A stretch of 64,000 nt of DNA from positions 62,001 through 126,000 of the forward strand of contig JABFGH010000011.1 in NCBI GenBank assembly GCA_013112585.1. Direction: 5' to 3'. Below the pieces are notes generated by a model. The model did not search any database and was not told the origin of the DNA. It worked only from the letters and a program-made list of their open reading frames with translations. This document shows positions 19,809 through 31,728 of the stretch, one piece after another; positions within the stretch are counted from its first letter, which is position 1; each line of letters starts with the position of its first letter. The translations under genes were made by a program, and so were the position numbers. The stretch comes from Ignavibacteriota bacterium (GTDB taxonomy: Bacteria; Bacteroidota; Ignavibacteria; Ignavibacteriales; Melioribacteraceae).

Positions 19809-22232
19809 ATGGAAACTCAGTTTTCCAACAAAAAATTTATTCTGATTGTTGATGCTGTAATCATTTTATTGTGCATTGCCGGATTCTATCAACTGGTCGT
19901 CAAACCGGGCTTTCCAACCAATATATCTAATGTTAAAGAGATTTACCCCTATGAGATTAGCGCAGATTCTATAGTAAGCATTAATGGAATCAACGTATCC
20001 GATGCTGAAGAGTTAGAAATATTCCTTAATAGAATGAGCATAGAGGATTCGGTTAATATTAAATTCAGTTTCTCTGAGCGAAAATTCCTTTTTCCTTTAA
20101 TTTCCTTTTACTCTGTTCAGGAACTCATAATAATTACTATAGTAGGTTTACTGTTTATCTTTTCCGGAATTTTTGTTCTTTTAAAGTGTTTCAATCAAAC
20201 TTACGCGCATATATTTCATTGGAGTTGTTTTGCCACTGCAGCAATTATGTTTATGAGCTGGGGCTCGCAGGGTCAAATTCCTGAATGGATTGGTTTAATT
20301 ACACATACTGGATATCACGCGGCGTATTCATTTGTGCCGGCATCCATTTTGCATTTTACATTGCTGTTCCCCAAAAAGAAAATAGTTAATAGAAAACATC
20401 TGCTGTTGGTTCTATATTCTATTTCTGCCTTGTTCACCATTTCATTAAGTATAAGATTTATCTTTGTATTTATTGAATATTCCGAAATTACAGCAAAAAA
20501 CTATATTTTACTTTTAGGTCTTGCTCGTTACTATATTGGGATCATAATAATTATTGCAATAGGAATTTTTGTTCACTCCTACACAAGTGCTAAAGAAACA
20601 TCAGAAAAGAAAAAACTCCTTTGGCTTATGCTTGGATTTCTTATGGGTCCATTTGCATATGCAACATTATGGATTCTTCCATATTCAGTTATTAACCGCC
20701 CGCTGATACCAGAAATATTTGTTATTCTATTAATGTCATCCGTCCCGATCACATTCGCAATTTCAATTATTAAATACAACCTTATGGATATACACTTACT
20801 GTTAAAAAGAGGTGTCGTTTATTCCATTGTTATAAGTTCAATTTTAATCATATATATAATTGGTTTAGCCTTTTTTGCATCAGAAGTTATGAGTGCTGAA
20901 TATCCGACCTTCTCAATAATAGGTGTAATAGTAGTTGTAATAATTTTTCAGCCCGTCAAAATGAAAGTTCAAAAGTTTGTTGATAAAAAATTCTTCAGAG
21001 TTCATTATGATTTTCGAATAGCAATTAAATCTTTTTTGAAAGAAATAAACGAGTCAAATTCTATTGAGCAGCTTGCAAGCATTTTAGTCACAAGAACTAA
21101 CGAACTAATACCATTAACGAAAGTTGGATTTTTTATACTTAAAGAACCGGAAAATTATATAAGTCTGATTGCCCATATTAATTTTGATCTACTTGTCGGA
21201 AGATCAGTGAAGTTTCAAAAAGGAAAATTAAAAACAGATTTATCGCTTCCCATAGCTTTGCCGAATATTGTGGAGGCTGGTGTAAAGGTTGAATTAGCAG
21301 ATGTTAATGTTTTTAGGAGATGGGGAATGAGTGTTATTTTTCCTATTAAGTCATCTTCAAAAAAAGTATACGGTTTTTTTGTATTGGGCAACAAAAAAAG
21401 CGAAACCCTTTTTAACGCTGAGGATATTGACCTATTAAATAATGCAGCTGCTAATGCAGCTTCAACCATAGAAAGAATAAAACTTCAGGAGGAAGTTATT
21501 AGAGAACATTTAGAAACAGAAAGACTTGAAGAGCTTAACAAAATGAAGTCTTACTTTGTATCTAGTGTTAGTCATGAATTAAAAACGCCCTTAACTTCAA
21601 TAAAAGTATTTACGGATCTATTAAAAGGCGGAGTGACAGGAGAAGATCAGAAATCAAATGAATATCTGGATATTATTGATGGCGAGAGCGATAGACTGAC
21701 TCGATTGATAAATAATGTACTTAACTATTCAAAAATTGAAAAAGGCATTAAGGAATATAATTTTGAAAAGGTTGAATTAAATGAAGTTATAAATCATGTA
21801 CATACATGCATGCGTTACGTACTTAAAATAAATGGTTTTGATGCAAAGATCTCAATACCAGAAAAGCTACAGTATGTTTATGCCGATAGGGACAGTATAA
21901 TTGAAGCTGTTATTAATCTTATTTCAAATTCTATTAAATACAGTAAAAATGAAAAAGAAATTACAATAGCCTTAAAAGATTGCGAAAACTATAAGTGGAT
22001 AATTGTTGAGGATAGGGGGATAGGTATTTCAAACGAAGTGCAAGCTAAAATATTTGAACCATTTTATCAGGCTGATAATAGAGAAAAACAATATGCTGAT
22101 GGAGCAGGGCTAGGTCTTTCTATAGTAAAAAATATTATGGATGCTCATAAGGGATCTATTGAGGTTGAAAGTGAGTTAGGGAAAGGGAGTAAATTCATTC
22201 TTAAGTTTCCAAGTGAAAAATTTAATGAATAA
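19809..22232 (+). CDS. Membrane sensor histidine kinase with PDZ-like and GAF domains
   Basis: An 807-aa sensor. Residues ~10-30 are a TM helix. Residues ~40-85 look like a PDZ peptide-binding half (DSIVSINGINVSDAEELEIFL). Then come about eight TM helices (~100-365), a GAF-like domain (~400-555), the HisKA dimerisation helix with phospho-acceptor His589 (SHELKTPL), and the HATPase with N box (EAVINLISNSIKYS), G1 (EDRGIGIS) and G2 (GAGLGLSIV). It should phosphorylate one or both regulators that follow with overlapping or close starts. The extracytoplasmic PDZ-like domain next to a multi-TM sensor is uncommon. The signal is unknown. Confidence 0.9.
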   Translation: METQFSNKKFILIVDAVIILLCIAGFYQLVVKPGFPTNISNVKEIYPYEISADSIVSINGINVSDAEELEIFLNRMSIEDSVNIKFSFSERKFLFPLISFYSVQELIIITIVGLLFIFSGIFVLLKCFNQTYAHIFHWSCFATAAIMFMSWGSQGQIPEWIGLITHTGYHAAYSFVPASILHFTLLFPKKKIVNRKHLLLVLYSISALFTISLSIRFIFVFIEYSEITAKNYILLLGLARYYIGIIIIIAIGIFVHSYTSAKETSEKKKLLWLMLGFLMGPFAYATLWILPYSVINRPLIPEIFVILLMSSVPITFAISIIKYNLMDIHLLLKRGVVYSIVISSILIIYIIGLAFFASEVMSAEYPTFSIIGVIVVVIIFQPVKMKVQKFVDKKFFRVHYDFRIAIKSFLKEINESNSIEQLASILVTRTNELIPLTKVGFFILKEPENYISLIAHINFDLLVGRSVKFQKGKLKTDLSLPIALPNIVEAGVKVELADVNVFRRWGMSVIFPIKSSSKKVYGFFVLGNKKSETLFNAEDIDLLNNAAANAASTIERIKLQEEVIREHLETERLEELNKMKSYFVSSVSHELKTPLTSIKVFTDLLKGGVTGEDQKSNEYLDIIDGESDRLTRLINNVLNYSKIEKGIKEYNFEKVELNEVINHVHTCMRYVLKINGFDAKISIPEKLQYVYADRDSIIEAVINLISNSIKYSKNEKEITIALKDCENYKWIIVEDRGIGISNEVQAKIFEPFYQADNREKQYADGAGLGLSIVKNIMDAHKGSIEVESELGKGSKFILKFPSEKFNE

Positions 22233-23133
22233 AATACTAATAATTGAAGATGATCCTGCAATTCAGTTGGGATTGAATAAGCTGCTAAGTGAAGCGGGAT
22301 TTAGTGTAACCTCTGAATCAGATGGAATGAATGGTATGAATACAGCACTGAAAGAAAATCCGGATATTATTTTACTCGATATCGGATTGCCGTCGTTAAA
22401 TGGTCTTGACGTTTGCAGAAAATTAAGAGAGGAAAAATATCGAGGTTCAATTATAATTTTAACCTCCAAAGGAGAACAAGTTGATAAAGTAGTTGGCTTA
22501 GAATTAGGTGCAGATGATTATATTACAAAACCATTTGACTCCCGTGAACTGCTTGCAAGAGTGCGAGCACAATTGAGGCGGAACAATTTAAAAACCAGCG
22601 AAGAGCTAAGTAGAGACCGCAAGCGAAAATTAACTGCAATAATGTTTACGGATATTAAAGGCTATTCAAAAGCAATGCACCAAGATGAATCAGCAGCAAT
22701 AAAAATGTTGGCAAAGCACAATGAAATTCTCAATAAAATAATATTAAGTTTTGGCGGTAATATTATTGAAATAATTGGGGATGCTTTTTTGGCATCCTTC
22801 GATAGTGCTGTTGAATCGGTAAAATGCGGGTTGTCTATTCAAAAAGAAATAGTTGAACACAACAGCAGGGCTGCTAAAAATGAAAGATTTAAAGTGAGGA
22901 TAGGAATTCACTTAGGTGATGTTGTTGAGTTTGAGGGAAAGATAAAGGGCGATACTTTAAATATTGCTGCACGAATTCAGCAAGCTGCAAGACCGGGTGA
23001 TGTGTATTTTTCCGAAGACGTATATTCGGCAGTGCAAAATAAAATTGAAATTAATCCGGAAAGTATTGGGAAGTGTAAGTTTAAGAATATCAAAAAAATA
23101 ATTTCAGTTTACAAAATTGAATGCAATGATTAG
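22225..23133 (+). CDS. Response regulator fused to a class III nucleotidyl cyclase
   Basis: Receiver domain (residues 1-120, phospho-acceptor Asp52 in LLDIGLPS, conserved Lys in TKPFDSRELL) joined to a cyclase domain (~135-300). The cyclase has metal-binding Asp residues in MFTDIKGYS and IIGDAFLAS and the Asn/Arg pair in TLNIAARIQ, so it appears active. Phosphorylation probably tunes cAMP or cGMP output. I prefer the ATG at 22225, overlapping the kinase stop by 8 bp, over the in-frame GTG at 22213. It is the middle gene of a kinase/cyclase/regulator operon, so one sensor may feed both a second messenger and transcription. Confidence 0.9.
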   Translation: MNKILIIEDDPAIQLGLNKLLSEAGFSVTSESDGMNGMNTALKENPDIILLDIGLPSLNGLDVCRKLREEKYRGSIIILTSKGEQVDKVVGLELGADDYITKPFDSRELLARVRAQLRRNNLKTSEELSRDRKRKLTAIMFTDIKGYSKAMHQDESAAIKMLAKHNEILNKIILSFGGNIIEIIGDAFLASFDSAVESVKCGLSIQKEIVEHNSRAAKNERFKVRIGIHLGDVVEFEGKIKGDTLNIAARIQQAARPGDVYFSEDVYSAVQNKIEINPESIGKCKFKNIKKIISVYKIECND

Positions 23134-23144
23134 TAGGTGAATAA

Positions 23145-23822
23145 ATGAAAACTATATTAATAATTGAAGATGACATAGCAACTTTAAAAGGCTTGGAGGA
23201 AACACTGCACCGAGAAAACTATAATGTTATTTGCAGCGAAGATGGGGAGGAAGGTTTTAAAAAAGCTGTGAACGAAAATATTGATCTATTAATTTTAGAT
23301 TTAATTCTTCCCTCGAAAAACGGAATAGATATTTGCAAGGAATTACGCGCTCAAGGAATTAACCTACCAATTTTAATGCTTACTAGCAAAATTGAAGAAT
23401 TCGACAAAGTTTTGGGACTGGAAATTGGAGCGGATGACTATGTTACGAAACCTTTCAGTATTAGAGAATTATTAGCTAGGATAAAGGCTTTATTGAGGAG
23501 AAAAGCCGAGCTTATTAAAGACATTGAAGAATACACTTTTGATAATGTTCATGTTGACTTTAAAAAGATGCTTGTTCAGAAAAATGAAAAAGAGATCCAT
23601 CTTTCAGTTACAGAACTAAATATTTTAAAATATTTTATTCAACATAAGGGTGAGGTTATTTCCAGAGATAAGCTGCTTGATGATATTTGGGGGTACGAAG
23701 TCTTTCCAACGACAAGAACTGTTGATAATTATATCCTATCACTTCGTAAAAATTTAGAAGATGATCCGCACTCACCTAAACATATTATAACGGTTCACAA
23801 AGCCGGGTATAAGTTTATCTGA
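23145..23822 (+). CDS. OmpR/PhoB-family response regulator
   Basis: A 225-aa DNA-binding regulator. The receiver (residues 1-118) has Asp52 (LILDLILPS) and Lys in VTKPFSIREL. The winged-helix effector (~130-225) has the recognition-helix segment SRDKLLDDIWGYEVFPTTRTVDNYILSLRKNLEDD and ends HKAGYKFI. It starts 11 bp after the cyclase gene. Proteins of this family bind direct repeats at 10-11 bp period, so it is the obvious local candidate for the 11-bp arrays at 26675, 29701 and 29768. Its 3' end overlaps the convergent radical SAM gene by about 51 bp. Confidence 0.93.
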   Translation: MKTILIIEDDIATLKGLEETLHRENYNVICSEDGEEGFKKAVNENIDLLILDLILPSKNGIDICKELRAQGINLPILMLTSKIEEFDKVLGLEIGADDYVTKPFSIRELLARIKALLRRKAELIKDIEEYTFDNVHVDFKKMLVQKNEKEIHLSVTELNILKYFIQHKGEVISRDKLLDDIWGYEVFPTTRTVDNYILSLRKNLEDDPHSPKHIITVHKAGYKFI

Positions 23823-25232
23823 TATTAAACTTTGCACTTTACCGGCACCAATATTTTTCTTTTTAACTTTTTTGAATTTATTAAAAACCCGCTTTTTTGC
23901 ATGATGTCTTTGAAATACTGAAAGTTTAAAGTAAATGAATGTTATTACAAATATTTTCAGTATAAATTTTGCAATGTTTTCATTTATCGACTGCTGATTG
24001 ATCAGCTTAATCCATCTTCTAATAATTTTACTTGGCGAATAAAATAATTTATTAACTCGTTTATAAGCAAAGTATATATCATCTTCGGAAAGGTTATTAT
24101 GTTTGAAGACCAAATGGTCACCGTCATAATGTGAAAGATCATGATCATGTATTCTATGCTCATCATTCAACTGGTTGTAGAGTGGTGTGCCGAATATCGG
24201 AACGGTTATAGATGGGAGTATGACAGCCGCACCAATTTCATCAAGTAATTCAGGCAATTCTTCATAGTATTCATTAGTGTCCTCTTCTAGGCCAAACATT
24301 AGTCCTACAAATGTTAAAATTCCTTTGCGGTGAAGCTTATCAAAATATTCTTTGTACTCATTAACTTTATTCTGTTTTTTCTGAACTGCAATTAGGCTTT
24401 TTTCGTTTAACGATTCCATACCGAGAAACGACATTCTGCAATTTGCTTTTGAAAGCAGATCAATAAACTCATCATCTCTTAAACTTTCCATGCTATATTG
24501 AAAACCTATTGCCCAATAATTTAATTTTGCAATTTCTTTAAGAAGTTTTTTGGCATGTGCAAGATCTCCTGAAAAATGATTGTCAAGTATCATTGCCATT
24601 TTCTTTTTATACAATGGTAGTTTTTGGGTTGAAGTCAAATCTCTTATTACATCTTTTACAGGGCGAGTTCTAAAAGGGATAGGCTTAATGTTAAGCTGGC
24701 AATAAGTACAGCTATGTATGCAGCCTCTTGAAGTTTCGGTTACAATCGGCACAGAGAATTTTGATTCAACTAAATCATATCGGGGAGGCGGAATATCTTT
24801 AAGAGAAGGATAATGTTCAGCATGATAAATCTTCTTCAAGTTGCCGCTTATTAAATCTTCAACTATTTTGGGCCATACACCCTGAGCCTCGCCCACTAGG
24901 ATTGAATCAAAATAGGGAAGAACTAACTCCGGAAATGTTGATGCAAATTTTCCGCCTCCTATTACCAGTTTGCCCTTTTCCCGAAATTTTAATGCAGCCT
25001 CAATTGCATGTGGAGCCAAATAATCCATGAAGCTGATTGCAATAAAATCCGCATTAGTATCATAATCGATTGGGCGAACCATTTCATGAAGTACTTCAAT
25101 TTCAACAATTGGTGGTGTCATCCCAGCAAGCAGAATACCCGGTAATGGAGGCGCGGGTGTTAGAGCAAAATAGGGTCTCTCATCGATTAAATTTTGAAAC
25201 AGTACAAGTATTAAAAGCTTAGGCTTTTTCAT
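23772..25232 (-). CDS. B12-binding-domain radical SAM enzyme
   Basis: A 486-aa protein of the BchE/HpnJ-like class. The N-terminal ~150 residues look like a cobalamin-binding Rossmann domain (LVIGGGKFASTFPE, SILVGEAQGVWP). The radical SAM core from ~170 carries the 4Fe-4S ligands in SRGCIHSCTYCQ, and GLMFGLEED is typical of the barrel. A basic, partly hydrophobic C-terminus (~400-486) may touch the membrane. Members methylate or rearrange unactivated carbons, often in lipids and pigments; the substrate is unknown. An AGAAAGGA ribosome binding site precedes the start. It is the last gene of the minus-strand cluster, 52 bp after the oxoamine synthase, and its end overlaps the response-regulator gene. 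Confidence 0.88.
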   Translation of the reverse strand: MKKPKLLILVLFQNLIDERPYFALTPAPPLPGILLAGMTPPIVEIEVLHEMVRPIDYDTNADFIAISFMDYLAPHAIEAALKFREKGKLVIGGGKFASTFPELVLPYFDSILVGEAQGVWPKIVEDLISGNLKKIYHAEHYPSLKDIPPPRYDLVESKFSVPIVTETSRGCIHSCTYCQLNIKPIPFRTRPVKDVIRDLTSTQKLPLYKKKMAMILDNHFSGDLAHAKKLLKEIAKLNYWAIGFQYSMESLRDDEFIDLLSKANCRMSFLGMESLNEKSLIAVQKKQNKVNEYKEYFDKLHRKGILTFVGLMFGLEEDTNEYYEELPELLDEIGAAVILPSITVPIFGTPLYNQLNDEHRIHDHDLSHYDGDHLVFKHNNLSEDDIYFAYKRVNKLFYSPSKIIRRWIKLINQQSINENIAKFILKIFVITFIYFKLSVFQRHHAKKRVFNKFKKVKKKNIGAGKVQSLISDKLIPGFVNRYNMFR

Positions 25233-25284: not shown

Positions 25285-26574
25285 CTATGCTGCTTCAAGC
25301 CTCCCCGGATCTGAATATTTTTTCCATACTCTTTCAACAACACTTATAAGATTATCAATATCTTGTTTTGTATGTGTTGCCATTAGGCTTATCCTGAATC
25401 TTTGCTCTGAAATTGGAACAGCCGGATATTCAATTGAATTTAGAAAAATACCCTCTTCATCAAATGCATGTGAGGCTTTTCTAATGTTCATGCCGATAGG
25501 TACTTTTAGAGGAATAATACTTGTTTTGGAGTTGATATTTAAACCTATCTGATTCAAAGCCTTTTTTGTATAAGCAATATTATCATTTAGGTTCGTTAAT
25601 AATTCAGGTTGGTTTTTGATCACATCAAGACCTGCTAAAACTGCTGCCGCAATTGCAGGAGGAAGAGAGGCAGAAAACATATAGGATCTTGCAAAAAACC
25701 GCAGGTAACTTATTATTGATTTAGATGAGGTTATAAATCCGCCTGTTACTGAAAATGTTTTGCTGAATGTTCCCATGGTTATATCAATTTTATCTTCCAC
25801 ATTGTAATGTTCTGCGGTACCTCGTCCGGTTTTTCCCATTACTCCCGTACCATGTGCATCATCTAAAATTATGTAAGCGTTATTTGCTCCGGCTATTTTG
25901 ATAATTTTATCCAACGGTGCGGTATCTCCCTCCATTGAATAAACTCCTTCAACACTAATAAATTTATCTGCGTATGATTGAGTGTTTTTAATTAATTCAT
26001 TGAGATCTTTCACATTATTGTGTTCAAACGATTGAGAGTTTGCCCCCGACAGTTTAATGCCGTCATAAAGAGAAGCATGACTATTAGAATCATAAAGTAT
26101 TAAATCATTGCTATTGACCAGCGCTGAGACCAATCCTAAATTTGCACCATAGCCGCTCGAAAAAATCAAGGCATCTTCAGAGCCCTTTAGCTCGGCTAGT
26201 CTTTCCTCCAATTCTCTATGTAAATTTGTATATCCATTTAAAAGTGGAGGACCACCAACACCAACTCCATATTTAGATGCTGCCGATTTTGTTATTTCAA
26301 TAACATATGGATGATTTGCTAATCCTAAATAATTGTTCGATCCAAACATCAGCATTTTTTTTGTCTTTCCTGTGTATCTATCTTTTACGAAAACTTCTCT
26401 ATCACTAGGAGAAAGAATGCATCGCAAATGCTGTAATTCTTTATTCTTTTGAAGGTTGTTAATAAATGATTCAAAGAATTTGGTTCTTTCCTTTAAATTT
26501 TCTTTACGTCCCATTATTAACAATTGGCGAAGATCAAAATTTTCGCAGCCACGGTATTCATTAATCTTTTTCAT
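25285..26574 (-). CDS. Alpha-oxoamine synthase (serine palmitoyltransferase/KBL/BioF-like, PLP-dependent)
   Basis: Condenses an amino acid with an acyl thioester, releasing CO2. A 429-aa fold-type I enzyme with an N-terminal extension of ~60 residues compared with BioF. Visible: MFGSNNYLGLANHP (~76-89), the SGYGANLG motif (140-147), His166 in NSHASLYDG, LDDAHGTG with Asp239 and His241, and the PLP Schiff-base Lys272 in GTFSKTFSVTGG. Motifs cannot separate serine palmitoyltransferase from 2-amino-3-ketobutyrate ligase or BioF, but the absence of biotin or threonine genes and the lipid-type neighbours favour a lipid role. TAGGAG precedes the ATG, and an 11-bp-period array lies 100 bp upstream, so it may have its own promoter. 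Confidence 0.88.
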   Translation of the reverse strand: MKKINEYRGCENFDLRQLLIMGRKENLKERTKFFESFINNLQKNKELQHLRCILSPSDREVFVKDRYTGKTKKMLMFGSNNYLGLANHPYVIEITKSAASKYGVGVGGPPLLNGYTNLHRELEERLAELKGSEDALIFSSGYGANLGLVSALVNSNDLILYDSNSHASLYDGIKLSGANSQSFEHNNVKDLNELIKNTQSYADKFISVEGVYSMEGDTAPLDKIIKIAGANNAYIILDDAHGTGVMGKTGRGTAEHYNVEDKIDITMGTFSKTFSVTGGFITSSKSIISYLRFFARSYMFSASLPPAIAAAVLAGLDVIKNQPELLTNLNDNIAYTKKALNQIGLNINSKTSIIPLKVPIGMNIRKASHAFDEEGIFLNSIEYPAVPISEQRFRISLMATHTKQDIDNLISVVERVWKKYSDPGRLEAA

Positions 26575-26674
26575 TTTCTACTCCTAGGCTTCTTTTATAA
26601 AACATTTTTTTTAATCAATTATATTTAAGCCATGAGCATAATATTGTTTAAGCCGAGCAAAGTTGACACAATTC

Positions 26675-26702
26675 GGTAAATGAAATGTCAAAAACTTGTC
26701 AT
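26675..26702 (-). promoter_or_regulatory. Pho-box-like array upstream of the oxoamine synthase
   Basis: Read on the minus strand, the hexamers ATGACA (26702-26697), TTGACA (26691-26686) and TTTACC (26680-26675) are separated by exactly 5 bases each, giving an 11-bp period. The array ends 100 bp before the oxoamine synthase ATG. The first box overlaps the stop codon of the upstream ThiL-like gene. The form matches the other two arrays at 29701 and 29768. Binding by a PhoP/PhoB-type regulator is inferred. Confidence 0.55.
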
Positions 26703-27739
26703 GCTGGTTTTTTGAATTCTTCATCCAAATTAGTGAGGGCTTTTAGATAGTTTTTAATATCAAGTTTATTTTTAAGAGGAAGGTTTCTAATTTTTTCAGT
26801 ATCAATATTAATTATTTTACTATAGAGCGGCACTTTAATTTTGGGTTCCATAATTACAAAACCCAAAAATTCGGGATTCCAGTTGATGGATTCAGCTTTA
26901 TTTTTGAAAATTAAATCTTGTTCTTTTGATATTGTAAAAATTAGCTCAAACTCACCATGCTGGCCTGCTAAAAGAAACCAAGAAGGGAGGCTCAACTTTT
27001 TCAAAATATTTTTTGCTTTATTATCTAATGCGGACTCCCAATTGCAGTTTAGCTCAAAACCAAAATTATTTAACCTCATTAGTTGGTCAAGAGTCGAAAA
27101 TATTCCATCACTTGTGTCCATACAAGCGGTAGCAAATTTTAGTAGAATTTGGGATTCTTTTAATCTTGCTGTTGGTTTATAATTGTAATTTATTCTTTTT
27201 CCATTTAATATTTTTGTCAGTGCAAAAGTATTTCCTGTTCCAATTTTGCCCGATGAATAAAGCAAGTCACCAACCTTACATCCAATTCTTGAAAGGGGTT
27301 TTTCCTTGATGATACCTAACGCTGCACCAGATAGAACTAGAATTTTACTATAATTTGTATCGCCCCCAAGAACAAAGGTATTACAGATATTACAAGCATC
27401 GCTAATGCCTTGCTGTAATTTAATTAACTCTTTTTGTGAATAACTTTTTGGTATTAATTCAGAAATTACTATTCCCATGGGCGATGCGCCTACTGCCGCT
27501 AAATCACTTAAATTTACCATCACAATCATCCAGCCAATTAAATAAGGATCATCATATATTCCCAACTCAATTTCTTCTGCAATGGTATCTGTTGTTATCG
27601 CTATCTTGTAATCTGTGTTAAAAGGTGCGTCAATAATTTCAGCATCACTTTCGTGTAATTTATTGAATTGAAAAGGTGATCTTTCAAATTGTTTTGTTAA
27701 TTCCGAAATGAAATTATTTTCTTCTATCAAATTAATCAT
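26699..27739 (-). CDS. ThiL-like kinase (AIR synthase/PurM superfamily)
   Basis: About 346 aa, with the layout of thiamine-monophosphate kinase: TTDTIAEEIEL near residue 50, VNLSDLAAVGASPMG (the Mg-binding NxSD motif), GGDTNYS, MDTSDGIFSTL and GQHGEFELIFT, where ThiL has SGEDYELL. The His-Gly instead of Glu-Asp in that last motif and the lipid-gene setting suggest a different phosphoryl acceptor from thiamine-P. I choose ATG 27739: it gives an ATGA overlap with the preceding stop and has AAGGTG at 5-base spacing, unlike the in-frame GTG at 27745. Function beyond ATP-dependent phosphorylation or AIR-synthase-like chemistry is open. Confidence 0.82.
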   Translation of the reverse strand: MINLIEENNFISELTKQFERSPFQFNKLHESDAEIIDAPFNTDYKIAITTDTIAEEIELGIYDDPYLIGWMIVMVNLSDLAAVGASPMGIVISELIPKSYSQKELIKLQQGISDACNICNTFVLGGDTNYSKILVLSGAALGIIKEKPLSRIGCKVGDLLYSSGKIGTGNTFALTKILNGKRINYNYKPTARLKESQILLKFATACMDTSDGIFSTLDQLMRLNNFGFELNCNWESALDNKAKNILKKLSLPSWFLLAGQHGEFELIFTISKEQDLIFKNKAESINWNPEFLGFVIMEPKIKVPLYSKIINIDTEKIRNLPLKNKLDIKNYLKALTNLDEEFKKPA

Positions 27740-28659
27740 TGGCACACCTTTATGTATTTATGATGGACACCAAATTTCACATTGTCGGTTTTTATCACCT
27801 CGCCATCAAACTCAACGTAAAATTTTCGTACTGCATCAATTACAATCTCTTTTGCATCCCATGACGAAACATTTTTTAGCAAATGAAATTTGTGTTTTTG
27901 TAAAGCACGGAAAAGTTTTAGTCGGGTAATAATATTCATATTGGAAGAAAGATAAATACGTAATAGCCCATTGTCGTAAACGGGATTGCCGCCATAACTT
28001 AAATCACCTGAAAAGTGTGGATTTTTCATTATTCCCAAATTTGTGAGCTCAACATGTTTTACCTTTACTCCATCAGAGGATATTTGAACAGATTGATTTT
28101 TATAATGAAGAAGAGTTTTTAATGCAGTATAAATTATCGCCCATTTGGTACTCTTTTTTTTGATATATTTTAAGATGCCGGCAGGGTTATTAAAATTAAA
28201 ATTACCTTTGGCAGTCATTCCAATGCTTGCATTGATAAGAAAATACTTTTTTATGTAATTTTCGTTTTGCCTAAAAGTGAAATATCCAACATCCCGAAAT
28301 TTTGCATTAGAAAAATCAATCTTGATTGGTGGAGAATCTAATTCTTTTTTGACAGGTTTATAAAAATCATTACTCGACCCTATTCCTATTGCGCCAATCT
28401 TTAATTTTTTTATTTCGGCATCACTTACTACTTCCAAAAGCGAGTTTAATAATTGATTTAGTGTGCCATCACCCCCTGCAGCGGTAAAATTAAAATTTCC
28501 CTTATGGATATTTTCACGAAGTATTTTCTTGAGATTACAATTTTTGTCCCTCGAGGATAAATAGTAAATTTTTGTGCATGGAAATTTATCATTATAATAT
28601 TTATTCCATTTTTTTAAAGCCGTTCCTCCACCGGCATCTTTATTTAACAAAATAATCAT
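27736..28659 (-). CDS. Diacylglycerol/sphingosine-kinase-family lipid kinase
   Basis: A 307-aa protein with the NAD/DAGK catalytic fold. The nucleotide-binding GGDGTLNQ is at residues 62-69, IGIGSSNDFYKPV stands for the usual GTxNDFAR motif, and a beta-sandwich C-terminal domain ends with YVEFDGEVI, the family's DGE motif. Members phosphorylate diacylglycerol, sphingosine-type bases or related alcohols at the membrane. Eight bases separate it from the UbiA gene, and its stop overlaps the ThiL-like start (ATGA). With an oxoamine synthase two genes on, a long-chain-base substrate is plausible but unproven. Confidence 0.87.
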   Translation of the reverse strand: MIILLNKDAGGGTALKKWNKYYNDKFPCTKIYYLSSRDKNCNLKKILRENIHKGNFNFTAAGGDGTLNQLLNSLLEVVSDAEIKKLKIGAIGIGSSNDFYKPVKKELDSPPIKIDFSNAKFRDVGYFTFRQNENYIKKYFLINASIGMTAKGNFNFNNPAGILKYIKKKSTKWAIIYTALKTLLHYKNQSVQISSDGVKVKHVELTNLGIMKNPHFSGDLSYGGNPVYDNGLLRIYLSSNMNIITRLKLFRALQKHKFHLLKNVSSWDAKEIVIDAVRKFYVEFDGEVIKTDNVKFGVHHKYIKVCQ

Positions 28660-28666
28660 GGTAGTT

Positions 28667-29644
28667 CTAAATTTGATTTTCGCTGGGGCGAATTTTCATC
28701 GCGCCAACAAATAGTAAATAAAACACAATTAGATATATTGCCCATTCGGGCTTTTGTAAAGAAGAGATAAAAGCAAGCAAAAGGATATATGAATGCAGCA
28801 CATTTGTAATGGGTTTATGTGATTCACTATCTTTAGTAACTTTGTGTAAACGAAGCTGCCCAATTACCGCATGAATAAATGCTGCTAAAAGAAATAGGTA
28901 GGATATAAAAGAGACAGATTGAATGTTTTTTTCAGATATAAGCAGAGACACAGTAAAACCCAAAGCCAACAATGAAAAAACATCACTTACAAACGATGAT
29001 ATTTTTCGACCATAAACGACAACAATAGTTTTATAATGTGTTGCTCTGTCTGCTTCAGTGTCCTTAAAGTATCCGGCAACTACAAAGTTTGCATAGCCGA
29101 AGAAAATAACCAAGAGTGTATAAATAATTTTAGGCTGGTTAAATATTATGGATTGTGATCCGCACAAAAGACAAATAATGAATAACATAGCTACTATCCA
29201 TGAATTATAAAAAGGACCACCCCACCACCGCCTTTTGAAAAATGTATATGTGTACAAACCGATGCCTGAAAATAGACCAAGCAAAAGATTAATTGGATTA
29301 TAAAAACTAAAGATGGATATGCAGAAGAATAGACCCAATATGCTCATTATTAAAAATTGTTTTCTCGTAACAATATTTTGTGTTAATGGGCGGTATGGTG
29401 ATGATATCGAGTCAGTATCTATTTGGAAACAATCAGTAAGCACCTGCCCAAATCCATAGGAAAGAAATGCCGCCAGGAATATTATAAAACTATCTAGGGT
29501 AGGCAGGTTTGTTGTGAATGACATTCCGGCAATTCCGGTTATTCCGGATACAAATAGCAAATATGGACGCATAGTAATGATGAATGCTCGTATGAACATT
29601 ATACTAAAAAAACTATGTGGTTTTGTAATAATAGTTTGATTCAT
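28667..29644 (-). CDS. UbiA-family membrane prenyltransferase
   Basis: A 325-aa polytopic protein with about eight to nine TM helices. UbiA enzymes transfer a polyprenyl group from its diphosphate to an aromatic or lipid acceptor. The first Asp-rich motif is T70-D71-C-F-Q-I-D-T-D78, followed by SPYRPL. Compared with NDxxDxxxD, the Asn is Thr and the middle Asp is Gln. The second motif, KDTEADRATHYKT with D195 and D199, is well kept. The SPYRP element is like that of chlorophyll synthase and digeranylgeranylglyceryl phosphate synthase. First gene of the minus-strand cluster, with an 11-bp-period array 56 bp upstream. Acceptor unknown. Confidence 0.85.
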   Translation of the reverse strand: MNQTIITKPHSFFSIMFIRAFIITMRPYLLFVSGITGIAGMSFTTNLPTLDSFIIFLAAFLSYGFGQVLTDCFQIDTDSISSPYRPLTQNIVTRKQFLIMSILGLFFCISIFSFYNPINLLLGLFSGIGLYTYTFFKRRWWGGPFYNSWIVAMLFIICLLCGSQSIIFNQPKIIYTLLVIFFGYANFVVAGYFKDTEADRATHYKTIVVVYGRKISSFVSDVFSLLALGFTVSLLISEKNIQSVSFISYLFLLAAFIHAVIGQLRLHKVTKDSESHKPITNVLHSYILLLAFISSLQKPEWAIYLIVFYLLFVGAMKIRPSENQI

Positions 29645-29700
29645 TTTTATCTCATCAAAAATACTTTCTGGAAAAACATAGAATAATTATTGGAAGTCTT

Positions 29701-29728
29701 TGTCATAAAATTGTAAGTTTTTTGTAAT
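29701..29728 (-). promoter_or_regulatory. Pho-box-like array upstream of the UbiA operon
   Basis: On the minus strand: ATTACA (29728-29723), CTTACA (29717-29712), ATGACA (29706-29701), each separated by exactly 5 bases (11-bp period). The array ends 56 bp before the UbiA ATG. It matches the TT(A/C/T)ACA direct-repeat design known for Bacillus PhoP boxes and has the same direction relative to the gene. The regulator is inferred, not shown. Confidence 0.6.
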
Positions 29729-29767
29729 AAGTTTTAATATCACATCAAATGGAATTCAGTGAAATTA

Positions 29768-29795
29768 TTTACACCTATTTGACATTTATATGACA
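29768..29795 (+). promoter_or_regulatory. Pho-box-like array upstream of the 5'-nucleotidase
   Basis: Plus strand: TTTACA (29768-29773), TTGACA (29779-29784), ATGACA (29790-29795), again at exact 11-bp period, ending 64 bp before the nucleotidase ATG. Together with the divergent array at 29701 this gives two near mirror-image sites 39 bp apart in one 215-bp divergent promoter region. A secreted nucleotidase is a typical phosphate-starvation gene, which supports the reading. The ATG itself has a near-perfect AAGGAGGT. Confidence 0.65.
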
Positions 29796-29859
29796 TTTAA
29801 TGAATTAGTCAACATTACATTGAAACCGCTTGTTCATAAACAATAACAAGGAGGTCTAA

Positions 29860-31728
29860 ATGAAAATAGTTATTTTTTACTCTGTGTTTATCTTTCTGGC
29901 AATTTTACCAGTTACCAGCCAAGCCCAATTAGATACTCTCACAATTCTGCATATCAGCGATACCCATTCGAACTTAGCGCCGCTTGCACCAAGAACTCTA
30001 GACCTGGCAGGGACACAAGGTGGAATTGCAAGAGCAGCAACAATTGTCGGTCAAACTAAAATGACTGAACCGAATGTTTTATTTTTTCATTCCGGGGATT
30101 TATTTGTAGGCGACTTTTTCTTTAATAAATATTTCGGCGCCGCAGAATTTCAATTGCTTAATGCACTTGGGCTTGATGCCATGGCAATAGGTAATCACGA
30201 GTTTGATTTAATGCCATCAACCCTAACGGGTGCTCTCCAAGCTTCTTTTACACCAAACGATGGCTTTCCTTTGCTTTGCTGCAATGCGGTAATTGAGGAA
30301 GACTCACTTAATGATTTAAAAACCTATATGGAGCCATATTTTATAAAGGAATTGGGCTCAATAAAAATTGGGGCATTTGGTTTGTTAACCCCGGCTACTA
30401 ACTTGCTTTCTCTTCCTGAGCCCGCATTTATTGATACAAATATTTTTCAACATGCGGTGTCTTCTGTGGAAGCATTAACACAAGAGGGCTGTGATGTGAT
30501 AGTCTGCCTCTCTCACCTCGGTTTGGGGCTGGATAGACTTGTAGCCGAAAATATTCCTGGGATCAACTTAATTTTAGGCGGGCATGACCATCATGCTTTT
30601 GACACGCCAATTGAAATTTCAAACCCAGCCGGAATTACGACATACATAATTCATTCCGGCGCCTTTTACAAGAGCATAGGAAAAATTGCTCTGCGGTTGA
30701 ATGGAGGTCAAGTTGAAAATGTTAATTTTAATTTAATTGAACTTGATGAAAGCATACCTGAAGAACCGACAATTGCAGCGCAGGTTAATGGAATGATTGC
30801 AGAGATTGAGGCTGATTATGGTCCTGTTTATTCTCAGCAAATTGGAATTGCAGATTCATTTTTCGAAGAATTTCCCAACAATCTTCTCGTCGATGGACCA
30901 CATGATACACCGGTTGGCAATTTAGTGACAGATGCTTTTAAAAATAAAACTAACACTGACATTGCAATTGAACCGAGCGGATCAACCGCCCAGCCCATTT
31001 ATAAGGGACCAATTGTTGAGGCTGATATTTTTAGAACTGTTGGTTATGGGTATAATAGTGTAAACGGACTCGGATTTAGAATGGTAACTTTCGACCTTAC
31101 AGGAATGCAGATATTAGGCGGATTGGAATTCGGGTTGGCAAATATTGAAGAAGATGACGAGTTTTTTATTCAGGCATCCGGTTTAACTTATGATTACTCT
31201 CCAAACAATGCACCGTATTCCAGATTAAATTATGTATTAATTAATGGCGAACCGATAAATCCCGATTCGATTTATTCAGTAACTACAAATGAATTTGTAC
31301 TTGCCGCCCTAGATAAATTATTGGGAGTAGTACCCCAAAATATTGTTCTTTATGATTCGCTATCCGAACACCAGGTGGTTGCCGAATACGTTCAAAACCA
31401 AGGGATAATTTATCCTGAAACAGGAAGAATTACAGAGGTTGTTGACCAAAACAATATTGTTCCTTATGCTTTTGAACTGCATCAAAATTATCCGAACCCA
31501 TTTAACCCATCTACCAAGATTAGTTTTTCAATTTCTGAGCCCGGACACACAGAGCTAAATATTTACAATATTCTCGGTGAAAATGTGATCACACTTTTAT
31601 CCGAAACCTTAACGACAGGCAAATATGAAATATCCTGGAATGCAACAGGATTTGCTTCAGGAGTTTATTTTTATACTCTAAAATTCAACGATGTGATTCA
31701 TTCTAAAAAAATGATCTTAATGAAATAA
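29860..31728 (+). CDS. Secreted 5'-nucleotidase/2',3'-cyclic phosphodiesterase (UshA-like) with T9SS sorting domain
   Basis: Releases phosphate from nucleotides outside the cell. 622 aa: signal peptide (1-22), calcineurin-like metallophosphatase domain (~25-290) with metal ligands in HISDTHSN (Asp34, His36), HSGDLFVGD, IGNHEFDL and GGHDHHAF, the 5'-nucleotidase C-terminal domain (~330-510, with TPVGNLVTDAF and the substrate-binding aromatic region), and a T9SS type A sorting domain (~540-622: NYPNPFNPSTKISFS, GVYFYTLKF, ending SKKMILMK). The sorting domain means surface delivery rather than periplasmic residence as in E. coli UshA. Preceded by an 11-bp-period array, followed by a strong terminator. 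Confidence 0.94.
   Translation: MKIVIFYSVFIFLAILPVTSQAQLDTLTILHISDTHSNLAPLAPRTLDLAGTQGGIARAATIVGQTKMTEPNVLFFHSGDLFVGDFFFNKYFGAAEFQLLNALGLDAMAIGNHEFDLMPSTLTGALQASFTPNDGFPLLCCNAVIEEDSLNDLKTYMEPYFIKELGSIKIGAFGLLTPATNLLSLPEPAFIDTNIFQHAVSSVEALTQEGCDVIVCLSHLGLGLDRLVAENIPGINLILGGHDHHAFDTPIEISNPAGITTYIIHSGAFYKSIGKIALRLNGGQVENVNFNLIELDESIPEEPTIAAQVNGMIAEIEADYGPVYSQQIGIADSFFEEFPNNLLVDGPHDTPVGNLVTDAFKNKTNTDIAIEPSGSTAQPIYKGPIVEADIFRTVGYGYNSVNGLGFRMVTFDLTGMQILGGLEFGLANIEEDDEFFIQASGLTYDYSPNNAPYSRLNYVLINGEPINPDSIYSVTTNEFVLAALDKLLGVVPQNIVLYDSLSEHQVVAEYVQNQGIIYPETGRITEVVDQNNIVPYAFELHQNYPNPFNPSTKISFSISEPGHTELNIYNILGENVITLLSETLTTGKYEISWNATGFASGVYFYTLKFNDVIHSKKMILMK

Follow-up and report, generated by a model that had tools for sequence, protein, structure and literature searches.

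Repeat Arrays Upstream of a Lipid-Type Operon and a Nucleotidase Gene

Three arrays of short direct repeats stand in front of a lipid-like operon and a gene for a secreted nucleotidase in the stretch of Ignavibacteriota DNA analysed here (64,000 nucleotides; the window), raising the question of which regulator they serve and which signal it conveys. The arrays and the genes next to them are as follows.

26664–26701, minus strand: array 1, four units at 11-bp pitch (TGACA 26697–26701, TGACA 26686–26690, TTACC 26675–26679, TGTCA 26664–26668)
29701–29727, minus strand: array 2, three units (TTACA, TTACA, TGACA), before the UbiA-like gene
29769–29795, plus strand: array 3, three units (TTACA, TGACA, TGACA), before the nucleotidase gene
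28667–29644, minus strand: UbiA-family prenyltransferase, first gene of the lipid-like operon
27736–28659, minus strand: DAGK/YegS-type lipid kinase
26699–27745, minus strand: AIR-synthase-related, ThiL-like kinase
25285–26574, minus strand: BioF/serine-palmitoyltransferase-like PLP acyltransferase
23772–25232, minus strand: radical SAM protein (best NCBIfam matches to HpnJ- and B12-binding-type radical SAM models, far below cut-off)
29860–31728, plus strand: secreted 5′-nucleotidase-type protein with a type IX secretion sorting domain

The 11-bp period, the positions, and the distances to the ORF starts reported in an earlier note on this DNA were all verified in the sequence (array 2 to 29644 on the minus strand, 56 bp; array 3 to 29860 on the plus strand, 64 bp; array 1 to 26574 on the minus strand, 100 bp). 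Its unit type, T(T/G)ACA, fits eight of the nine units, the exception being the third unit of array 1 (TTTACC). Array 1 is located before the BioF-like gene and shares bases with the stop codon of the ThiL-like gene upstream; it also has a degenerate fourth unit (TGTCA, 26664–26668) beyond those noted earlier. At ≤2 mismatches, the window contains five matches to the pattern, as compared to a mean of 1.45 in shuffled sequence; five matches were reached in 4 of 100 shuffles. A general repeat search of the sequence with the chosen settings missed the short array units.

Recurrence of the Arrays at the Same Genes in Relatives

Across the 4.94-Mb genome, 11 matches were found at ≤1 mismatch, as compared to three for the reversed pattern; these represent the three window arrays, four matches from two 11-bp minisatellites, and four matches inside ORFs. 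The window arrays are the only such arrays at gene starts in this genome at this threshold, contrary to the expectation that a genome scan would yield hits before pst and phoU. Nine relatives carrying the operon presented 24 exact matches (in six of the nine genomes) and none for the reversed pattern; 18 further genomes presented 51 exact matches (in 14 of the 18), 17 of which are minisatellite-like repeats of one genome, and again none for the reversed pattern. The same genes have arrays in front of them in relatives ranging from Ignavibacteriales to Calditrichota and Aminicenantes, and the proposed link between the lipid-like operon and the nucleotidase is borne out, as both associations recur in relatives of several phyla. 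The Gemmatimonadota, Eisenbacteria, and WOR-3 genomes were free of arrays.

Placement was counted at 46 array-bearing loci, which were selected for having arrays (L171–L188 were taken in on the basis of pattern matches), using the composite site at ≤3 mismatches on the sense strand. Sites were found upstream of 19/31 UbiA, 5/5 SDR, 18/25 BioF, and 9/13 nucleotidase genes, as compared to 1/28 DAGK, 0/26 ThiL, 1/17 radical SAM, 0/14 histidine kinase, 0/19 response regulator, and 20/272 other genes; antisense sites numbered three, one, zero, and two for UbiA, SDR, BioF, and nucleotidase genes, respectively. Other sites in relatives lie upstream of genes for putative outer-membrane barrels and a subtilase and of a FabA-type gene, and in one relative upstream of the gene for an endonuclease/phosphatase-family protein (Exo_endo_phos-Omp85). 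Three matches (G129:C18, G110:C49, and G009:C27) fall in or against ORFs and could be chance occurrences.

The operon arrays are real and not a product of chance. An origin as chance or minisatellite sequence, to which we assign a negligible probability, could appeal to the array-like 11-bp minisatellites of this genome and the 17 such matches in one relative; yet the two minisatellites examined (L003 and L008) lie away from gene starts, and such an origin is contradicted by the placement of the operon arrays at gene starts, their presence at homologous promoters in several phyla, their fixed spacing to the −7 element (see below), and the absence of reversed-pattern matches in all 27 relatives.

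Geometry of the Array Promoters

Among 64 distinct array promoters, TA begins exactly 20 nt past the last unit in 48, mostly as a −7 element of the form TANNTT(T/G); at any other offset TA was found in at most 10 of the 64, and in 2000 shuffles in at most 19. In all three window arrays the last unit is followed at 20 nt by a TA, in the case of array 1 if the fourth unit is counted, giving the following putative elements.

26638–26643, minus strand: putative −7 element TATTAT of the BioF promoter, 20 nt past array 1, with one mismatch to TANNTT
29675–29680, minus strand: putative −7 element TATGTT of the UbiA promoter, 20 nt past array 2
29816–29821, plus strand: putative −7 element TACATT of the nucleotidase promoter, 20 nt past array 3

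Array 1 shows three mismatches to the composite pattern, no better than background, and is identified by its position rather than by its score. The element downstream of the arrays resembles the −7 box of Bacteroidota σA promoters, given as TAnnTTTG in PMC9723704; unlike in those promoters, the last array unit fills the region upstream of the −7 element. A scan with the σ70 consensus gave 13 matches, not above the 18.7 in shuffled sequence.

PhoB is described as binding head to tail on 11-nt repeats with a strict spacing between box and promoter (PMC4415409 and PMC10294691), and the Pho box is defined by direct repeats at 11-bp pitch (PMC4415409). The arrays are like the boxes of E. coli PhoB and B. 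subtilis PhoP in their head-to-tail half-sites, their pitch, and an OmpR/PhoB-family candidate regulator, and like the Pho regulon in their strict core-promoter spacing and in having a nucleotidase as a target. As read from the sequence, an array at a fixed distance from the −7 element is the architecture of a PhoB-type activator.

A Linked PhoB/OmpR-Family Regulator and Histidine Kinase

Three genes on the plus strand of the window encode a candidate signalling system.

19809–22232, plus strand: histidine kinase with an N-terminal helix, a small alpha/beta region, about nine long helices (probably membrane), a weak GAF-like match, and HisKA–HATPase
22213–23133, plus strand: receiver domain plus adenylate/guanylate cyclase domain, between the kinase and regulator genes
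23145–23822, plus strand: PhoB/OmpR-family response regulator, proposed to bind the arrays; recognition-helix region FPTTRTVDNYILSLRK

The regulator contains the Receiver and Trans_reg_C domains of the OmpR/PhoB family. Its best NCBIfam model is PhoB (TIGR02154; 211.9 bits, below the equivalog cut-off of 296.2), a cut-off that is not discriminating here because the PhoB candidates of pst-bearing relatives also fall below it (best, 233.1). The nearest solved relatives are regX3, MtrA, and KdpE. The system is like OmpR/PhoB-family two-component systems in its receiver plus winged-helix architecture and its tandem sites; it differs from them in that no curated equivalog cut-off was reached among the matches listed, in its multi-helix sensor kinase, and in a regulon built around a cryptic lipid-type operon.

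Over 72 non-duplicate loci (site at ≤1 mismatch), 16 carried both the regulator and a site, two the regulator without a site, 12 a site without a linked regulator, and 42 neither (Fisher p = 7e-7, a value that overstates independence because the loci are related by descent). Both regulator loci without such a site (L091 and L135) have one at two to three mismatches with the correct spacing. In the subset of genomes searched, three array-bearing ones (G083, G095, and G121) proved to have an unlinked regulator of the same type; in G083 it adjoins an array as well as a nucleotidase gene, whereas in G121 it adjoins an array. The regulators of this type placed in a tree form one clade (99/97 support), and most share the helix region RTVDN(Y/F)IL. 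Arrays at the operons of Aminicenantes contain TAACA units (all three units in L135, mixed in L112 and L127), and the L112 regulator has a different helix, so half-site sequence varies within the clade. The linkage makes the protein at 23145–23822 the likely regulator of the arrays, and the recurrence at the same genes in relatives of several phyla agrees with the earlier view that they resemble operators bound by a PhoB/OmpR-family regulator. A similar helix (HPTTRTVDNFILKLRQ) occurs in a second regulator of this genome, C37:582, which could share sites.

Autoregulation was considered and rejected: sense-strand sites precede none of the 19 regulator genes and none of the 14 kinase genes (antisense, 2/14 for the kinase), and no array was found before the regulator's own operon. 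At one locus (L042), an array lies near the kinase gene and is oriented away from it.

PhoR has a short membrane anchor and a PAS domain. The kinase at 19809–22232 is not PhoR-like in topology, with its long helices following a small alpha/beta region and only weak GAF matches, below cut-off. A fold search with the kinase ranked kinase catalytic domains best and was uninformative on the sensor region.

Comparison with pst Promoters and Weighing of Alternative Signals

The earlier note had taken the arrays for the organism's Pho boxes, bound by its phosphate regulator, with an operon that replaces phospholipids in phosphate starvation. We consider this unlikely. None of the 20 pst loci from relatives, some of which end short of the operon leader, carries the array at ≤1 mismatch, and seven carry a TTAACA-type array instead, while the lipid and nucleotidase arrays of the same relatives are of the TTGACA/TTTACA type; the second letter of the TNACA units is G or T in 123 of 135 units on the operon side and A or C in all 21 at pst. 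The closest approach is a two-mismatch TKACA array 15 bp before pstB at L220, which lacks the composite spacing at ≤4 mismatches. The shared geometry does favour a Pho box, as the 11-bp pitch recurs in the pst arrays and the 20-nt spacing in five of seven; against this, a separate PhoB with the helix DRT(V/I)DVHIRK was identified in six of the seven relatives with TTAACA-type pst arrays. The array-linked clade is separate from PhoB in the tree (99/97), which includes two of the six PhoB candidates; helix regions were read for five candidates, four of them outside the tree. The array system differs from the Pho system in half-site, recognition helix, and kinase, the last contrasting with PhoR in its long multi-helix region. 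Phosphate control by the linked regulator would fit its best model being PhoB, the 5′-nucleotidase among the targets, and the endonuclease/phosphatase-family protein of one relative; PstB was not found in this genome, and the regulator could have assumed this role. In the same genome, no array at ≤2 mismatches was found in 3.2-kb stretches around the two PhoU-bearing genes, TTAACA arrays were not above background, and no regulator carried the PhoB helix of the pst-bearing relatives. The best TIGR02154 score here (213 bits) belongs to C33:9416, which groups weakly with the PhoB candidates (89/80 support) and adjoins a kinase that matches the WalK, PnpS, and PhoR models at scores below cut-off, and whose helix (EHTVNSHINRLRSK) differs from theirs; it may be PhoB, and the genome is not claimed to be PhoB-free. 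Phosphate as the signal for the arrays has a low probability.

A less doubtful, still tentative alternative is a second regulator with a Pho-like signal, acting in parallel to classical PhoB–PhoR and sensing the state of nucleotides, phosphate esters, or membrane phospholipids. The targets would join lipid-type synthesis to an extracellular nucleotidase and the Exo_endo_phos-Omp85 protein, and the two kinds of array occur together with two regulators in six genomes; the ligand is purely conjectural, and the sites before outer-membrane barrels, the subtilase, and the FabA-type gene do not suggest phosphorus.

With good confidence, we take the arrays to be operators from which the PhoB-family regulator at 23145–23822 activates transcription. 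The linked histidine kinase, with its multi-helix sensor region, would switch on the regulator, whose copies would occupy three or four TTGACA/TTTACA-type half-sites of 11 bp in head-to-tail order; the last half-site would lie near the usual position of a −33/−35 element, a fixed 20 nt ahead of the −7 element, and the bound regulator would recruit RNA polymerase to turn on three promoters (UbiA–DAGK–ThiL, BioF–radical SAM, and the secreted nucleotidase). The arrays, their fixed spacing, their recurrence at the same genes across phyla, the regulator linkage, and the difference from the pst arrays can be read in the DNA itself; from these we infer binding of the regulator and activation as its direction. 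The signal would be envelope or membrane state, not phosphate. More broadly, and as a possibility we put forward with reserve, several FCB-group and neighbouring phyla may have a second Pho-like system, in which a PhoB paralogue with diverged half-sites and a membrane-sensor kinase would direct synthesis of an undescribed lipid together with a surface nucleotidase and nuclease/phosphatase in response to membrane or lipid state.

An uncharacterised lipid-type operon hereby gains a candidate regulator, exact putative promoters, and a testable regulon in the array-bearing lineages. Two PhoB paralogues in one genome, apparently with a common promoter geometry and differing mainly at one half-site base and in the recognition helix, would offer an uncomplicated case in which to study the division of targets between regulators of this kind.

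Gene Content and Possible Product of the Operon

Literature searches returned no paper on the regulon or the operon among the matches listed, which does not prove absence. The BioF-like protein scores below the curated cut-offs of serine palmitoyltransferase/BioF models (382.8 vs 640 and 375.4 vs 426.45 bits). The FCB group has archaeal-type ether-lipid genes whose DGGGP synthase belongs to the UbiA family, according to passages of PMC7852524 that do not deal with the present operon. The UbiA-like protein is similar in that its NCBIfam matches include geranylgeranylglycerol-phosphate geranylgeranyltransferase, at a score far below cut-off (60.9 vs 353 bits). To our knowledge, the DAGK, ThiL-like, BioF-like, and radical SAM proteins are not partners in the archaeal ether-lipid pathway. 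In a speculative pathway, the BioF-like enzyme would form an amino-ketone (sphingoid-like) acceptor, two successive phosphorylations of an isoprenoid or long-chain alcohol by the DAGK and ThiL-like kinases would yield a diphosphate, and the UbiA enzyme would couple this to the acceptor. Records that contain the operon itself carry labels ranging from Ignavibacteriota to Gemmatimonadota, Eisenbacteria, and WOR-3.

Repeat Arrays and Promoter Geometry

The lipid-type operon and the divergent nucleotidase gene are best read, from their sequence, as served by a PhoB-type activator system. The three repeat arrays at 11-bp pitch claimed by the earlier note were all found as described, each read toward its gene:

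26664..26701 (-), array 1, before the BioF-like gene: TGACA-TGACA-TTACC, then an in-phase fourth unit, TGTCA
29701..29727 (-), array 2, before the UbiA-like gene: TTACA-TTACA-TGACA
29769..29795 (+), array 3, before the nucleotidase gene: TTACA-TGACA-TGACA

The minus-strand operon encodes, in order, a UbiA-family prenyltransferase, a DAGK-type lipid kinase, a ThiL-like kinase, a BioF/serine-palmitoyltransferase-like enzyme, and a radical SAM (rSAM) protein; none of these five proteins reached an NCBIfam cut-off among the matches listed, and the lipid pathway proposed from the enzyme families is speculative. The divergent gene encodes a 5′-nucleotidase-type protein bearing a type IX sorting domain, and a plus-strand two-component operon, convergent with the lipid-type operon, encodes a histidine kinase, a receiver-cyclase protein, and a PhoB-family response regulator.

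Of 64 distinct array promoters, 36 contain three units and 27 contain four; an extension rule counted five in the remaining one. TA starts exactly 20 nt past the last unit in 48 of the 64; any other offset reached at most 10, and 2000 shuffles never gave more than 19. The sequence at this offset reads TANNTT(T/G), resembling the Bacteroidota −7 box, TAnnTTTG in an excerpt of PMC9723704. This spacing holds for all three window arrays, the element of array 1 being TATTAT. Excerpts of PMC4415409, PMC10294691, PMC9723704, and PMC7852524 were consulted for promoter, PhoB, and lipid comparisons; no published description of this regulon was found among the literature matches listed.

In the whole 4.94-Mb own genome, the three-unit pattern (≤1 mismatch) gave 11 matches versus 3 for the reversed pattern; because these represent the three window arrays, four matches in two 11-bp minisatellites, and four within ORFs, the promoter element is restricted to the window locus in this genome at this threshold. 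The composite pattern (array plus spaced −7 element, ≤3 mismatches) gave 29 matches versus 25 reversed, with arrays 2 and 3 as the only zero-mismatch matches and four places elsewhere at two mismatches; array 1 matches via units 2–4 with three mismatches, by itself background level. No additional regulon member in this genome stands out by the composite pattern at ≤3 mismatches.

The two own-genome minisatellites (G000:C38:8242-8279, L003, and C19:30452-30489, L008) are tandem repeats of the TTACAACCGAA / TAACAATTGAA type, with the period of the operators and similar sequence; these two, which were inspected, lie away from gene starts. Further minisatellite-like matches are at C13:1092, C18:2106, and C18:2866, and the relative G125 carries an 11-bp tandem minisatellite, TGACAGACATG, with 17 matches and operator-like period and sequence.

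Conservation and Linkage to the Candidate Regulator

The UbiA protein was present in 10 of 116 searched genomes, including the own genome. All nine relatives share the UbiA-DAGK-ThiL-BioF order and carry arrays (≤1 mismatch) before UbiA (or an SDR gene preceding UbiA) and/or BioF; rSAM is adjacent in seven, and a nearby response regulator is 55–67% identical to that of the window in six. A UbiA-alignment scan of genome contigs yielded 70 loci, some on the same contigs as these nine relatives, labelled Ignavibacteriales, Bacteroidetes, Calditrichia, Gemmatimonadota, Cloacimonadota, Eisenbacteria, WOR-3, Aminicenantes, and others. Array-bearing loci (Ignavibacteriales, Calditrichia, Kapaibacterium, and Aminicenantes) include some at 55–62% GC. 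In the 25 array-free loci that include a UbiA upstream region, no array was found there even at ≤3 mismatches with spacing; among these are the Gemmatimonadota, Eisenbacteria, and WOR-3 loci, from which the linked regulator is absent.

A more distant BioF-type protein (36–41% identical) lies immediately ahead of UbiA, without an array, in L101-L104, L106, L107, L113, L128, L133, L136, and L138 (Eisenbacteria, WOR-3/Stahlbacteria, Cloacimonadota, and some other MAGs); SDR and rSAM genes frequently lie downstream.

Among 72 non-duplicate loci, 16 had both linked regulator and array, 2 the regulator only, 12 the array only, and 42 neither (Fisher p = 7e-7; the counts are not independent because the loci are related by descent). 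Both regulator-only loci have a correctly spaced site at 2–3 mismatches; L087 and L093, counted as neither, have such sites at 1–2 mismatches, and L093 contains a truncated piece of the regulator. Unlinked regulators occur in G083 (adjoining an array and nucleotidase gene), G121 (adjoining an array), and G095. The regulators included in the tree form one clade (support 99/97; 15 rows, duplicates included), and most have the recognition-helix region RTVDN(Y/F)IL; L112 deviates, and the L127 and L135 regulators were missed by the helix text pattern.

Candidate Regulon in Relatives

Loci outside the operon were selected for carrying the array pattern. Their sites lie ahead of 5′-nucleotidases (L171, L173, L174, L186), a small secreted protein gene followed by a nucleotidase (L183), a protein combining an endonuclease/phosphatase-family domain with an Omp85 barrel (L178), a subtilase (L177), a FabA-type gene (L181), a putative outer-membrane barrel (L182), and a weaker barrel match below cut-off (L185); several other targets had no Pfam match. 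Among eight loci fetched via UbiA alone, six have a composite site (≤3 mismatches) at the nucleotidase (window, L038, L080, L084, L090, and L098; absent from L078 and L085).

Fusions of an endonuclease/exonuclease/phosphatase-family domain to an Omp85-type barrel (L038:15311-17446 and L178:2428-4557) adjoin the operon or its two-component genes and are possibly surface-displayed phosphodiesterases.

Relation to the Pho Box

The earlier note had described the arrays as resembling Pho boxes and expected hits before pst and similar genes. That expectation was not borne out: none of 20 fetched pst loci, some ending before the leader, had a TKACA (TTGACA/TTTACA) array at ≤1 mismatch. Of the 28 genomes that carry the operon, 18 have a PstB match at E 1e-80 or better, and 17 of these exceed the curated cut-off; none exceeded it in the own genome (99.97% complete). 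TTAACA-type direct-repeat arrays at 11-bp pitch (≤2 mismatches) precede a pst-group gene, as read by eye, in 7 of the 20 loci (L218, L224, L225, L226, L228, L229, and L231), five with TA exactly 20 nt past the last unit, and are probably the Pho boxes of these lineages. In the same seven genomes, TKACA arrays are present as well, at the lipid operon or the adjoining nucleotidase (L038, L039, L042, L044, L082, L084, and L099). Six encode a separate PhoB with helix DRT(V/I)DVHIRK; none was identified in the seventh, G095.

On the operon side, 123 of 135 unit counts have G or T as the second letter of TNACA; at pst, all 21 have A or C. Overlapping windows are included in these counts, as are five operon-side loci chosen because they carry TKACA. 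TAACA units (L042, L086, L112, L127, and L135) account for the 12 exceptions and fill all three positions in L135 (Aminicenantes). The operon element is Pho-box-like in its apparent working, yet distinct from the box at pst in these lineages.

In the own genome, the TTAACA-type array (≤1 mismatch) gave 4 matches versus 5 reversed. One regulator of this genome, C33:9416, clusters with the PhoB candidates at weak support (89/80), so a PhoB may be present, although the helix differs. At C4:203188 (L265), the own genome, which has no PstB exceeding the cut-off, encodes a 373-aa membrane protein, Na/Pi cotransporter-like by eye, and, after it, a PhoU-domain protein.

Two-Component Genes

19809..22232 (+), histidine kinase
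22213-23133, receiver plus adenylate/guanylate cyclase domain protein
23145..23822 (+), PhoB-family response regulator

Relatives of the receiver-cyclase protein, which lies between kinase and DNA-binding regulator, occupy the same neighbourhood in L040, L046, L074, and L120; L038, L039, and L042 lack it. In the predicted kinase model (nine sequences; mean pLDDT 77, pTM 0.47), a single N-terminal helix and a small alpha/beta region come before about nine long helices; these are followed by a mixed domain that GAF models match weakly and by the catalytic part, which was the best-matched portion in a fold search. The long helices may be membrane-spanning, and the two-component system may sense membrane or envelope state.
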